Of a DNA stretch of 34,691 nucleotides, positions 25,669-30,939 are shown in pieces; position 1 is the first letter of the stretch; the number at the start of each line of letters is the position of its first letter. The notes below the pieces were generated by a model that was not told where the DNA came from, did no database searches, and saw nothing but the letters and a program-made list of their open reading frames with translations. The stretch covers positions 1 to 34,691 of the forward strand of contig JAJZYP010000009.1 in the NCBI GenBank assembly GCA_021798015.1. Reading direction: 5' to 3'. The position numbers and the translations under genes were made by a program. This DNA is from a bacterium. GTDB lineage: Bacteria > SZUA-79 > Acidulodesulfobacterales > Acidulodesulfobacteraceae.

Positions 25669-26058
25669 ATGAAAAAGGGTTTTACAATTATTTTTATCGT
25701 TCTTGTTATTGTTTTAGGTTATATTGTTATTCATGCGATTACTGCGCCGGTTAAATTATCGGCCGCGCAGCTTGGATACCAGCTCATTCACTCTAACAAA
25801 ACAGGGATTGATTGTTTTGCCTGTCATACTATAAACGGAAAGGGTGGAAATATTGGACCTAATCTCTCGAAAGAAGGTGCGCTTAAACATTCTATCAAAT
25901 GGCTTGAGGTACAAATTGCGACACCTTCAAAACATTTTAAATCTGGTTCTATGGTTAAGATAAACGGTAAAACATATATGGCTATTATGCCCGACCACAA
26001 AATGCTTTCCAAAAAAGAGCTTTTTGAGCTTGCCTCATACCTAGACTCATTAAAGTAA
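25669..26058 (+). CDS. Membrane-anchored/periplasmic monoheme class I cytochrome c
   Basis: N-terminal TM/signal, CFACH heme motif with GKGGNIGPNLS, distal AIMPDHKMLSKKEL candidate Met ligand. Confidence 0.85.
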   Translation: MKKGFTIIFIVLVIVLGYIVIHAITAPVKLSAAQLGYQLIHSNKTGIDCFACHTINGKGGNIGPNLSKEGALKHSIKWLEVQIATPSKHFKSGSMVKINGKTYMAIMPDHKMLSKKELFELASYLDSLK

Positions 26059-26071
26059 GCATCATTTTTGT

Positions 26072-26116
26072 TTAGAAAAAAGGAGTCTGATTTGAAATCA
26101 GACCCCTTTTTTCTAA
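26072..26116. repeat. 45-bp near-perfect palindrome, second copy of the 23212 element; may act as terminator
   Basis: TTAGAAAAAAGGAGTCTGATTT G AAATCAGACCCCTTTTTTCTAA; one mismatch in the stem. Confidence 0.9.
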
Positions 26117-26233: not shown

Positions 26234-27418
26234 GTGAAAATCATAAATTTTGACCATTTTGCGGCAACAATGATGAGACCGGAGGTAAAAGAGGCGATGG
26301 AGCCTTTTTTTATTCAGGAATACGGTAACCCGCAGAGTATTCATACGCTTAGCGACGAGCCAAGAGAGGCGTTGAACAGGGCAAGGCTTCAGGCGGCGGA
26401 CATTTTGAACGCTGCAAGTAACGAGATTATATTCACTTCAAGCGGTTCTGAATCTAACAATCTTGCCATTAAAGGAACGGCTTTTGCCAGAATGGATAAG
26501 GGGAAACATATTATAGTCTCTAAAATAGAACATTTTAGCGTTTTAAACGCCGTTAAGTCTTTAGTTAAACTTGGTTTTGAGGTGAGCGAAGTTTCCGTTG
26601 ACAAATACGGTACGGTTAATCCTCAAGATATTAAAAACGCTTTAAGGAAAGATACGATTCTCGTTAGTATAACACACGCTTCGAACGAAATTGGAACTAT
26701 TCAGGATATTAAAGAAATTTCTAAAATAGTGCATGAAAATTCAGGGGCATATATACATACAGATGCAAACACTTCCTGCGGGTTTATTGAAACGGATGTT
26801 AAAGAATTAGGTGTGGATATGCTTTCTGCCTCGCCACACAGATTTTACGGACCAAAAGGAACAGGGCTGTTTTATCTTAAAAAAGGCGTGCGGATAATGC
26901 CTTTAATCGATGGCGGTATTCAGGAGTTTGGCAGGAGAGCCGGTACGGAAAATGTCCCTGCAATTGTTGGGGCAGGTGTTGCATGTGAGTTGGCAAAAAA
27001 GGAATTAAAAGACAGAACGGCGCATTTACTTCCCATCCAAAAAGAGATTATGGACGGGGTGTTAAGCGGACTTGACGAGGTATATTTAAACGGTCATCCT
27101 GAAAAAAGGCTTCCTAACAATTTAAACTTTGTCGTTAAATATATCGAGGGCGAGTCGATGCTTATGTGGTTGAACAACAACGGGATTATGGTGGCAAGCG
27201 GTTCAGCATGCACATCCAAGATTTTAAAATCTTCACATGTGTTAAGCGCAATAGGAGTTGACCCTGCACTTGCTCAAGGCTCTTTACTCATCTCGCTCGG
27301 TGAGGATAATACAATGGAAGATGCCGCTTATTTTGTAAAGGAACTCCCTCCGATAGTCGATAAATTAAGGCAGATGTCTCCTCTTTACGAAGAGGTTAAA
27401 AGAAAGAATAAAGTATAA
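26234..27418 (+). CDS. NifS/IscS-like class V aminotransferase-fold protein lacking the PLP Schiff-base lysine (GTG start)
   Basis: IscS-like throughout (FTSSGSESNNLAIKGTA, IEHFSVLNAV, HTDANTSCG, GRRAGTENVPAIVG, VASGSACTSKIL) but SPHRFYGPKG in place of S.HKIYGPKG. Confidence 0.88.
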   Translation: MKIINFDHFAATMMRPEVKEAMEPFFIQEYGNPQSIHTLSDEPREALNRARLQAADILNAASNEIIFTSSGSESNNLAIKGTAFARMDKGKHIIVSKIEHFSVLNAVKSLVKLGFEVSEVSVDKYGTVNPQDIKNALRKDTILVSITHASNEIGTIQDIKEISKIVHENSGAYIHTDANTSCGFIETDVKELGVDMLSASPHRFYGPKGTGLFYLKKGVRIMPLIDGGIQEFGRRAGTENVPAIVGAGVACELAKKELKDRTAHLLPIQKEIMDGVLSGLDEVYLNGHPEKRLPNNLNFVVKYIEGESMLMWLNNNGIMVASGSACTSKILKSSHVLSAIGVDPALAQGSLLISLGEDNTMEDAAYFVKELPPIVDKLRQMSPLYEEVKRKNKV

Positions 27419-27472: not shown

Positions 27473-27913
27473 ATGCCGGTATATTCGGAAAAAGTTATGG
27501 ATCACTTTCAAAATCCAAGAAATGTCGGAGAGATAGAAAATGCGGACGGTGTAGGGGAACTTGGCAATCCCACTTGCGGCGATATAATGAAAATATATAT
27601 CAAGGTTAAAGACGATAAAATCGACGATATAAAATTTAAAACATTCGGTTGCGGGGCTGCAATTGCCACAAGTTCTATGGTAACCGAGCTTGTTAAGGGG
27701 AAAGCTCTGGAAGAGGCTGAAAAAATATCAAACGAGGTCGTTGCCGAGGCTTTGGACGGACTCCCCCCCGTTAAGATGCACTGTTCCAATCTTGCCGCGG
27801 ATGCGCTTCATCTCGCCGTGGAAGATTACAGGGCAAGAAAGGCGGGCAAAGGTCCCATCGGAAGAGTCGAAACACCGGAACACGACGAAAGCGACATTCT
27901 TGAGCATGTTTGA
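27473..27913 (+). CDS. iscU: Fe-S cluster scaffold protein IscU/NifU-N
   Basis: MDHFQNPRNVGEI, GNPTCGDIMKIYIKV, KTFGCGAAIATSSMVTELVKGK, VKMHCSNLAADAL; all ligand Cys/Asp/His present. Confidence 0.95.
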   Translation: MPVYSEKVMDHFQNPRNVGEIENADGVGELGNPTCGDIMKIYIKVKDDKIDDIKFKTFGCGAAIATSSMVTELVKGKALEEAEKISNEVVAEALDGLPPVKMHCSNLAADALHLAVEDYRARKAGKGPIGRVETPEHDESDILEHV

Positions 27914-27999
27914 CATACTCGCATTTATTGAGGCAGACAACACCCCTCCTCTCCACTTGCGGGAGTGAAGAGGTGTTGTAAGAGTATAAGAGATAAATT

Positions 28000-28224
28000 A
28001 TGAAACACGATTACGAACTTGACACATTTGGGTTATCCTGTCCAGTCCCCATTATGAAAGTGGCGGAGGAGTTTAAAAACATTCCTGAAGGCTCCGTATT
28101 AAAGGTAATAGCTTCCGATGGGGGTATTGTCGAGGATTTAAAAAGCTACTGCAAAAAAACCAATCACGATTTCTTATTTTATGAAATTAACCTTCCCGAA
28201 TACATAGTTTATGTAAAAAAATAG
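28000..28224 (+). CDS. TusA-like sulfur carrier protein
   Basis: 74 aa with LDTFGLSCPVPIMKVAEEFKNIPEGSVLKVIASDGG, CPxP motif. Confidence 0.88.
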   Translation: MKHDYELDTFGLSCPVPIMKVAEEFKNIPEGSVLKVIASDGGIVEDLKSYCKKTNHDFLFYEINLPEYIVYVKK

Positions 28225-28706: not shown

Positions 28707-30170
28707 ATGAAAAAGAAATTGGCAGTAACTCTGGTTTCCTTGCTCATTTTGGCGTTTTCTTTTGCTATGGCGCCAAAAAAAGCAAACGCAATTCCGGCTT
28801 TTGCGCAAAAGTACCATTTTTCATGCGCAGTTTGTCATACGGTATTTCCAAATTTAAACCCGTTCGGCAGGGCTTTCTGGAGAAACGGCTTCAGGCTTCC
28901 CGGAACAAACGGAACCCCATCCGATGCAACACAGATAACCGATGGTTTAAGCCTTCCAAACCCATGGCCTATTCCGGTTATGATCGAGCCGATTATCGGT
29001 TATCAACACTATACAAATGAACATGTATCATCCGCAACGGATGCATTTAGCGCAGAGGCTGATTTAGTGACGGCCGGTGCATTTAAGATTTATACTCCGT
29101 TGGCAAATTCTATTTCATTTTATGTCCATTACAACAGTGCAACAACCTTTCTGAAATCTAATGGAACATCATCAGCTCCAGCATTCGCACAGAAACAGAT
29201 ATTTGCATCAATCAACGGTCTTGGAAGTGGATACGGCGTTCCGTCGCATTTGCTTAACTTAAAGCTCGGTGAGGTTACAACAGCAAGCCCGTATTTTTAC
29301 AGACAGATGCCGTTCTACATTCTTGGCGGTCCCGTAGGAAATGGGCAGGGATTAGCCGTAGGTTATGACGGTGAAGCAGCTAACTTAATCCACGCAAGAA
29401 ATGAAGGATTTGCCCTTTACGGAACGCCCGGTTACCATTTGTGGTATAAAGTAACGGTTACGAATGATGCGGGAAGTGGAACAGGAGAGGCGGCAACAGT
29501 AGTAAATAGTAGTGGTGGTGATACTTCTGTATCTAATGCTATGGAGTATTCCTATCAGTTAAAGGAATATTATCCAATCCCAATGGGTCAGTTAGAATTT
29601 GGTTATTACGGGGCAACAGTTGCAGAACCTTTCAATGGGAATGCTGGTTCTTGGACTAACCGTGTAACGATAAACGGCGTTGACCTTGACCTTGCCAACG
29701 ATATTTACGAGCTTGGCTTGACATACATGGTTCAGAGCGATAATCATCCATATGGAAATCCATCGTTACCGGCTACCCAGTTATATGTCGGTTCTAGTAA
29801 TGTCGGTAATACCAATTCAAGCAATGGTTACTCAACCTTTGAGGTTTATGGAAGATATTTGTTTCCGCAAATTGGTAAGGGTTTAATGCTTTCTGCAGAT
29901 TATGCCCAGTATTCCTGGACGCATAAAGACCTTCAGGAAGGTTTTAATCAATATATTAGTAGTACTCCATTATGCGCAAGCAATAGCGGTTTATATGAAT
30001 CAGGAACCTACGCAAGCAACAACGATTGCACTAATGAAGGCATAAAAGATGCGTTTGCAATTAATGCTGAATACAACTTAGCTTACAACGCCCATTGGTA
30101 TCTTGGATACTTGTTCACCAATAAATCTCAAGACGATACATTAGGCACAGGTCTTGACTTTGCATTCTAA
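28707..30170 (+). CDS. Cyc2-like fused monoheme cytochrome/outer-membrane porin
   Basis: Signal peptide; IPAFAQKYHFSCAVCHTVFPNLNPFGRAFWRNGFRLP N-terminal heme segment; ~420 aa beta-rich remainder ending in aromatic ...TGLDFAF. Confidence 0.7.
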   Translation: MKKKLAVTLVSLLILAFSFAMAPKKANAIPAFAQKYHFSCAVCHTVFPNLNPFGRAFWRNGFRLPGTNGTPSDATQITDGLSLPNPWPIPVMIEPIIGYQHYTNEHVSSATDAFSAEADLVTAGAFKIYTPLANSISFYVHYNSATTFLKSNGTSSAPAFAQKQIFASINGLGSGYGVPSHLLNLKLGEVTTASPYFYRQMPFYILGGPVGNGQGLAVGYDGEAANLIHARNEGFALYGTPGYHLWYKVTVTNDAGSGTGEAATVVNSSGGDTSVSNAMEYSYQLKEYYPIPMGQLEFGYYGATVAEPFNGNAGSWTNRVTINGVDLDLANDIYELGLTYMVQSDNHPYGNPSLPATQLYVGSSNVGNTNSSNGYSTFEVYGRYLFPQIGKGLMLSADYAQYSWTHKDLQEGFNQYISSTPLCASNSGLYESGTYASNNDCTNEGIKDAFAINAEYNLAYNAHWYLGYLFTNKSQDDTLGTGLDFAF

Positions 30171-30387: not shown

Positions 30388-30939
30388 ATGGAAGAATTCA
30401 AAAAAGAGGATGATTTTGTGAATATGAGCTTATCGGTTTCTCCCGAAAAATATTTCGACGCTCGTTTTGACGGTCAGGAAAAGCTCTTTACCGAAAAGTT
30501 TAATGGGCTTAAGACGCAATTCGACGAACGGTTTAACAGCCTTGAAGCAAGAATCGATAATCTTGAATCTAAATTTGACGAAAAGTTTAACAGCTTTGAA
30601 GCAAGAATCGATAATCTTGAATCTAAATTTGATGGGAAAATTAATAATCTTGAATCTAAATTCGACGAACGGATTAACAGCCTTGAATCTAAATTCGACG
30701 AACGGATTAACAGCCTTGAATCTAAATTCGACGAACGGATTAACAGCCTTGAATCTAAATTCGACCAGCGGATTAACGGCTTGGAAACTAAGTTTGACGG
30801 TGAGATCAAAATTCTATTGGAAAAGATTGAAAGCGTTGATAAAAAATTAAACTGGACATCTAATTTGACTTTTGCAATTCTTGGATTAGCGTTGGTTATG
30901 GTTGGAACTTTATTTGCCAAATTAGTTTTGCACTTTTAA
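30388..30939 (+). CDS. Hendecad-repeat coiled-coil protein with C-terminal TM helix
   Basis: Repeats of NLESKFDERINS; C-terminal LTFAILGLALVMVGTLFAKLVLHF; AAAAAGGAG RBS. Confidence 0.85.
   Translation: MEEFKKEDDFVNMSLSVSPEKYFDARFDGQEKLFTEKFNGLKTQFDERFNSLEARIDNLESKFDEKFNSFEARIDNLESKFDGKINNLESKFDERINSLESKFDERINSLESKFDERINSLESKFDQRINGLETKFDGEIKILLEKIESVDKKLNWTSNLTFAILGLALVMVGTLFAKLVLHF
30544..30783 (+). repeat. Intragenic tandem repeats: 54-nt (21+33) units then 33-nt units
   Basis: GAATCTAAATTCGACGAACGGATTAACAGCCTT three times perfectly at 30652-30750, variant unit 30751-30783; upstream GAAGCAAGAATCGATAATCTT + 33-nt units at 30544-30651. Confidence 0.95.

Follow-up and report, generated by a model that had tools for sequence, protein, structure and literature searches.

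The window analysed here, a stretch of 34,691 nucleotides from a member of the Acidulodesulfobacterales, encodes an IscS/NifS-type protein whose residues make cysteine desulfurase activity very unlikely: the PLP lysine and the substrate arginine are both replaced, and the mobile-loop cysteine is kept. The protein is likely the partner of the IscU encoded next to it, and we tentatively favour the reading that its sulfur comes from outside, most likely through a TusA persulfide. ISC-type Fe-S assembly is held to start universally with a cysteine desulfurase. In the lineage described here, the only IscU found is paired with an IscS devoid of cofactor and substrate residues, and an entire phylum of acidophilic sulfur bacteria appears to make its Fe-S clusters with an IscS that lacks both of the residues required for obtaining sulfur from cysteine. 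If this is true, IscS can persist as an externally fed platform, Fe-S assembly would be tied to the TusA/DsrE2 carrier network, and the sulfur source of Archaeoglobus fulgidus-type systems would become testable in bacteria.

Active-site residues and predicted structure

The preliminary description of this DNA had placed an arginine at the catalytic lysine position, encoded within the codons CAC AGA (26837-26842), and had noted that the PLP-associated His and Asp and the loop cysteine were kept and that the neighbouring Gln had become Thr. Its observations on the sequence were right in every detail that could be tested: direct reading of the codons and alignment with E. coli IscS (from NC_000913) located R203 in the K206 column and T180 at the position of Q183, and H100 (E. 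coli H104), D177 (E. coli D180) and C326 were retained (Table 1). A second catalytic loss, absent from that description together with the downstream tusA, was the replacement of E. coli Arg354 by Leu352, and leucine occupied this position in 10/10 rows of the window's family. In IscS/NifS proteins, Arg354 binds the carboxylate of the substrate cysteine. Known IscS chemistry thus argues that, without K206, no internal PLP aldimine would be formed and that, without R354, the cysteine carboxylate would not be held, so that desulfurase activity is not expected. Another lysine acting as the Schiff base was considered and rejected, since the lysine of the YGPKG motif (K208) is a regular feature that nearly all IscS proteins share, and the K206 column is filled by R203.

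The class V aminotransferase fold was recognised in the window protein (PF00266, E 7.6e-72), and its scores fell below the NCBIfam cut-offs for NifS or IscS, with both TIGR03402 (452 bits against 531) and TIGR02006 (365 against 643). An AlphaFold2 model obtained from a 27-sequence alignment reached a pLDDT of 91 and a pTM of 0.90, with the Cys326 loop disordered. The best PDB matches to the model were the A. fulgidus IscS structures 4HVK, 4EB5 and 4R5F, and TM scores to IscS structures ranged from 0.91 to 0.95.

Table 1. Features of the iscS-iscU-tusA region of the window and the basis of their assignment.
Feature	Position	Strand	Basis
Terminator-like hairpin and T-run in the gap separating iscS from the cytochrome c gene	26083..26112	+	direct sequence read
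IscS/NifS-type protein with R203 in place of the PLP lysine and L352 in place of the substrate Arg; C326 retained in the loop	26234..27418	+	GTG start, 394 aa
H202, codon CAC	26837-26839	+	codon read
Arg203, codon AGA, position of E. coli IscS Lys206	26840..26842	+	alignment, codon read
Cys326, codon TGC, mobile-loop persulfide cysteine, E. coli C328	27209..27211	+	alignment, codon read
Leu352, codon CTC, position of E. coli IscS Arg354	27287..27289	+	alignment, codon read
IscU/NifU_N scaffold with Cys, Asp, Cys and His-Cys ligands and LPPVK	27473..27913	+	profile and motif read
TusA-family sulfur carrier, CPVP motif	28000..28224	+	profile and motif read

Conservation within the Acidulodesulfobacterales

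A protein search of 60 genomes included 30 members of the family, the window's among them. The gene was present in 29 of these 30 Acidulodesulfobacterales genomes, the remaining one being only 59% complete, and all 29 carried arginine at the K206 position, encoded by AGA in 16 genomes and by AGG in 13. The HRFYGPKG motif was otherwise unchanged across the family, except for one member with Gln in place of His202, and dN/dS values of about 0.03-0.05 indicated strong purifying selection on iscS, which agrees with the earlier view of a conserved, non-decaying protein. AGA and the lysine codon AAA are one base apart, which would suit a pseudogene, a sequencing error or a chance substitution behind R203. 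However, 29 independent genomes, two arginine codons, a dN/dS of about 0.04 and a good fold prediction stand against such an origin; error and gene decay were ruled out on these grounds, and the probability left to this explanation is negligible.

A bacterial clade of IscS proteins without the PLP lysine

Searches of 287 and 383 genomes spread over bacteria, in which the K206 site was read in the best matches, revealed Lys-less IscS proteins in about 20 bacterial families; the lysine is replaced by Q, R, H, S, T, G or V (V in two loci fetched later). In an active-site table of 99 proteins using E. coli numbering, R354 was an arginine in 65/65 Lys-bearing proteins outside the clade, and this position was occupied by L, V or I in 32/32 of the Lys-less rows scored, one further row having a gap. 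C328, H104 and D180 were retained in all 33 Lys-less rows; Q183 was mostly lost, H205 often, and N155 in many members. Among loci fetched later, R354 was missing from 3/3 new Lys-less proteins (V, V, S) and present in 16/17 Lys-bearing ones, and three further Lys-less loci, fetched last, were all without it. The joint loss of K206 and R354, with the sulfur-carrying cysteine kept, is what one would predict for a protein that has given up making sulfur and still handles it. Two related proteins (L116 and L190) had the PLP lysine together with Leu at position 354 and an odd loop, PGSTCTF; L116 fell inside the Lys-less clade with tusA nearby, L190 had tusA 1.5 kb away, and both possibly represent an intermediate state.

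In a maximum-likelihood tree built without the catalytic columns, the Lys-less bacterial proteins and the window protein formed one clade (support 100/98), and A. fulgidus IscS grouped with its Asp-bearing relatives in a separate clade (100/99), placed apart also in a larger quick tree. The tree favours two origins of Lys-less IscS proteins over a single one, although an AU test does not reject a single clade (p=0.36). The idea of arginine as a special functional choice found no support: the many different residues at the K206 site across the clade imply that arginine itself is probably not special, though it does occur there in a second lineage (L139, L243) as well.

Gene neighbourhood and Fe-S gene content

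In the window, the gene order was iscS-iscU-tusA, and the predicted terminator-like hairpin upstream suggests that this trio begins its own transcription unit. Family members retained the trio, arranged either as iscS-iscU-tusA or as iscU-tusA-iscS. Lys-less genes from outside the family adjoined tusA, often together with a DsrE2 gene (PF13686) and sometimes without iscU. With loci treated as independent, tusA lay within 1.5 kb of 14/20 Lys-less genes versus 1/57 Lys-bearing ones (p=6e-10), and dsrE2 within the same distance of 11/20 versus 0/57 (p=2.5e-8). Pooling with the later loci gave 17/26 versus 1/74 for tusA and 14/26 versus 0/74 for dsrE2; in the other 9 of the 26 Lys-less loci tusA was not found within 1.5 kb, some of them lying at contig ends. 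Because these p-values assume independence and no more than 2-3 independent changes can be counted on the tree for the tusA link, too few for an independent-pairs test, its strength may well be due to shared descent instead. TusA-type genes numbered 5-12 per family genome, and their abundance could make the position of tusA beside iscS a sulfur-regulon effect.

Several arrangements departed from the trio. In four loci (L099, L094, L109 and L111), a Lys-less iscS was followed by dsrE2 and tusA without iscU, and here the IscS platform may take part in a sulfur relay with a purpose different from Fe-S assembly. In genome G027, an 86% complete MAG, tusA-iscS(R) was present at locus L058, and neither the genome nor the upstream part of the contig yielded an IscU; a palindrome (ATTCCCGC...GCGGGAAT) was located upstream of this tusA, different from the palindrome-like sequence seen in the window between iscU and tusA (27914-27999). 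The gene 5′ of iscS in the window (25669-26058) encodes a SoxX-like single-haem cytochrome c and was kept in at least three of the relatives read (L036, L048, L051). Downstream of the trio, a secreted protein that carries a single CxxCH motif and matches no NCBIfam model (28707-30170) was also kept in relatives, and the window further encodes a protein of 33-base in-frame repeats (FDERINSLESK) with a predicted coiled coil and a C-terminal hydrophobic stretch (30388-30939).

A match to IscU was obtained in 28/30 family genomes, as a single copy in 27 of the 28 and as two contig-edge fragments in the other (G013), and it adjoined the Arg-form IscS wherever the contig was intact. SufB was not found in any of the 30 family genomes by a search that was positive in 14/14 control genomes. 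A canonical, Lys-bearing IscS paralogue was present in most relatives, lying beside cysE, an iscR-like gene and mnmA in those read; no copy was detected in the MAG that contains the window (79% complete). In five near-complete family genomes, this paralogue was the sole other IscS/NifS protein, the remaining class V matches being unrelated enzymes. DsrE2-type genes occurred in all family genomes, and dsrAB is carried by these organisms.

Proposed role and alternative explanations

The gene neighbourhoods make feeding by TusA the best-supported idea of the sulfur source. The window IscS would act as a dimeric platform for loading the neighbouring IscU, and the co-encoded TusA would deliver the sulfur in persulfide form, having received it from DsrE2-type transferases, from inorganic sulfur metabolism or from the Lys-bearing paralogue. 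TusA would then persulfidate Cys326 in the loop, in the reverse direction of the E. coli flow from IscS to TusA, and Cys326 would either hand the sulfur to the cluster on IscU or be a ligand of this cluster, as in the A. fulgidus IscS-IscU complex. As the only scaffold found is of the IscU type and SufB was not found, the Arg-form IscS would serve general Fe-S assembly, and the Lys-bearing IscS beside mnmA may supply tRNA thiolation. A broader version of this proposal, in which a doubly inactivated IscS fed by TusA/DsrE2 persulfide constitutes a wide bacterial route from inorganic sulfur to Fe-S clusters without cysteine and is the sole system in the phylum Acidulodesulfobacterota, is doubtful.

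The preliminary description had named sulfide as the sulfur source, which is no longer the first choice, since the neighbouring TusA and DsrE2 point to a persulfide carrier; we regard it as rather unlikely that IscS acts on IscU as a structural partner and as the source of a Cys ligand, with free sulfide supplied by dissimilatory sulfur metabolism and TusA as a mere neighbour. The presence of dsrAB and the reported ability of SMS to use sulfide (PMC12192291) would suit such a role, as would A. fulgidus IscS, in which K206 and R354 are both lost according to our residue table, and which is described as inactive as a desulfurase because an Asp replaces the lysine and as ligating the cluster on IscU through Cys321 (PMC7585200, PMC9769115). 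However, free sulfide leaves unexplained both the linkage of Lys-less genes to tusA and dsrE2 and the survival of the trio through rearrangement, and members of the Acidulodesulfobacterales have been reported as facultative, not always in sulfide.

If cysteine were still the source, the Lys-bearing IscS could charge TusA, which would pass sulfur to the Arg-form IscS/IscU pair, the two paralogues dividing the labour. Near-complete family genomes with exactly two IscS/NifS proteins, one of each form, and the occurrence of the Lys-bearing protein in most relatives are consistent with this relay, but its gene sits with mnmA and not with iscU or tusA, the window's MAG (79% complete) yielded no copy, and the association with dsrE2 seen in relatives suggests an inorganic sulfur supply; we consider the relay unlikely. 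H104 and D180, invariant in all Lys-less members, may indicate that PLP or a similar ligand is still bound, and PLP is part of the deposited structure of the A. fulgidus complex as described in PMC9769115. That the window IscS binds such a ligand non-covalently for another reaction or for cysteine sensing is nevertheless very unlikely, given that R354 is lost, as are Q183 and H205 in most members and N155 in many, removing substrate and cofactor contacts, and that residue 206 is unconstrained across the clade.

Comparison with known systems

Transcripts of nifU, iscS/nifS and sirA (TusA-type), of unspecified gene copies, were among the top ones of Acidulodesulfobacterales in situ, where they were read as nitrogenase maturation, and a 'suf' transcript of unspecified identity was also listed (PMC6776010). 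The present results also bear on annotation: genes of this type carry the label cysteine desulfurase or nifS, and in situ they were taken for nitrogenase maturases (PMC6776010). In the literature searched, whose coverage was incomplete, no description of a Lys-less IscS with TusA/DsrE2 was found. The principle is already known from Archaeoglobus, but the papers searched mentioned neither the bacterial clade nor the paired loss nor a coupling to TusA/DsrE2.

The bacterial parallel to the non-desulfurase IscS of A. fulgidus, already drawn in the preliminary description, is a good reading, as both proteins lack the PLP lysine, have Leu at position 354, keep the loop cysteine and have IscU as partner (a likely one in the case of the window protein), and the A. 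fulgidus protein is the best fold match. The case now reaches further, through the loss of R354 and the wide clade, and the two differ in that A. fulgidus has Asp instead of Arg, belongs to a separate clade (with one origin not rejected, as given above) and possesses SmsCB according to the literature, in contrast to the family of the window, whose genomes yielded no SufB. The IscS1 of Methanosarcina acetivorans, an archaeal protein, was likewise reported without the catalytic lysine (PMC7585200). The minimal ISC system (MIS), composed of IscS and IscU without carriers, was described with a working cysteine desulfurase (PMC12192291); it resembles the window system in its two-gene iscS-iscU core and anaerobe-type lineage, the family having one IscU and no SufB found, but the window IscS is predicted to lack desulfurase activity, and its locus has tusA in addition. 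The fold, the mobile-loop cysteine and the IscU partner are shared by the window protein with E. coli IscS and human NFS1, and IscS also binds TusA (3LVJ). In these proteins, however, K206 and R354 are intact and sulfur goes from IscS to TusA.
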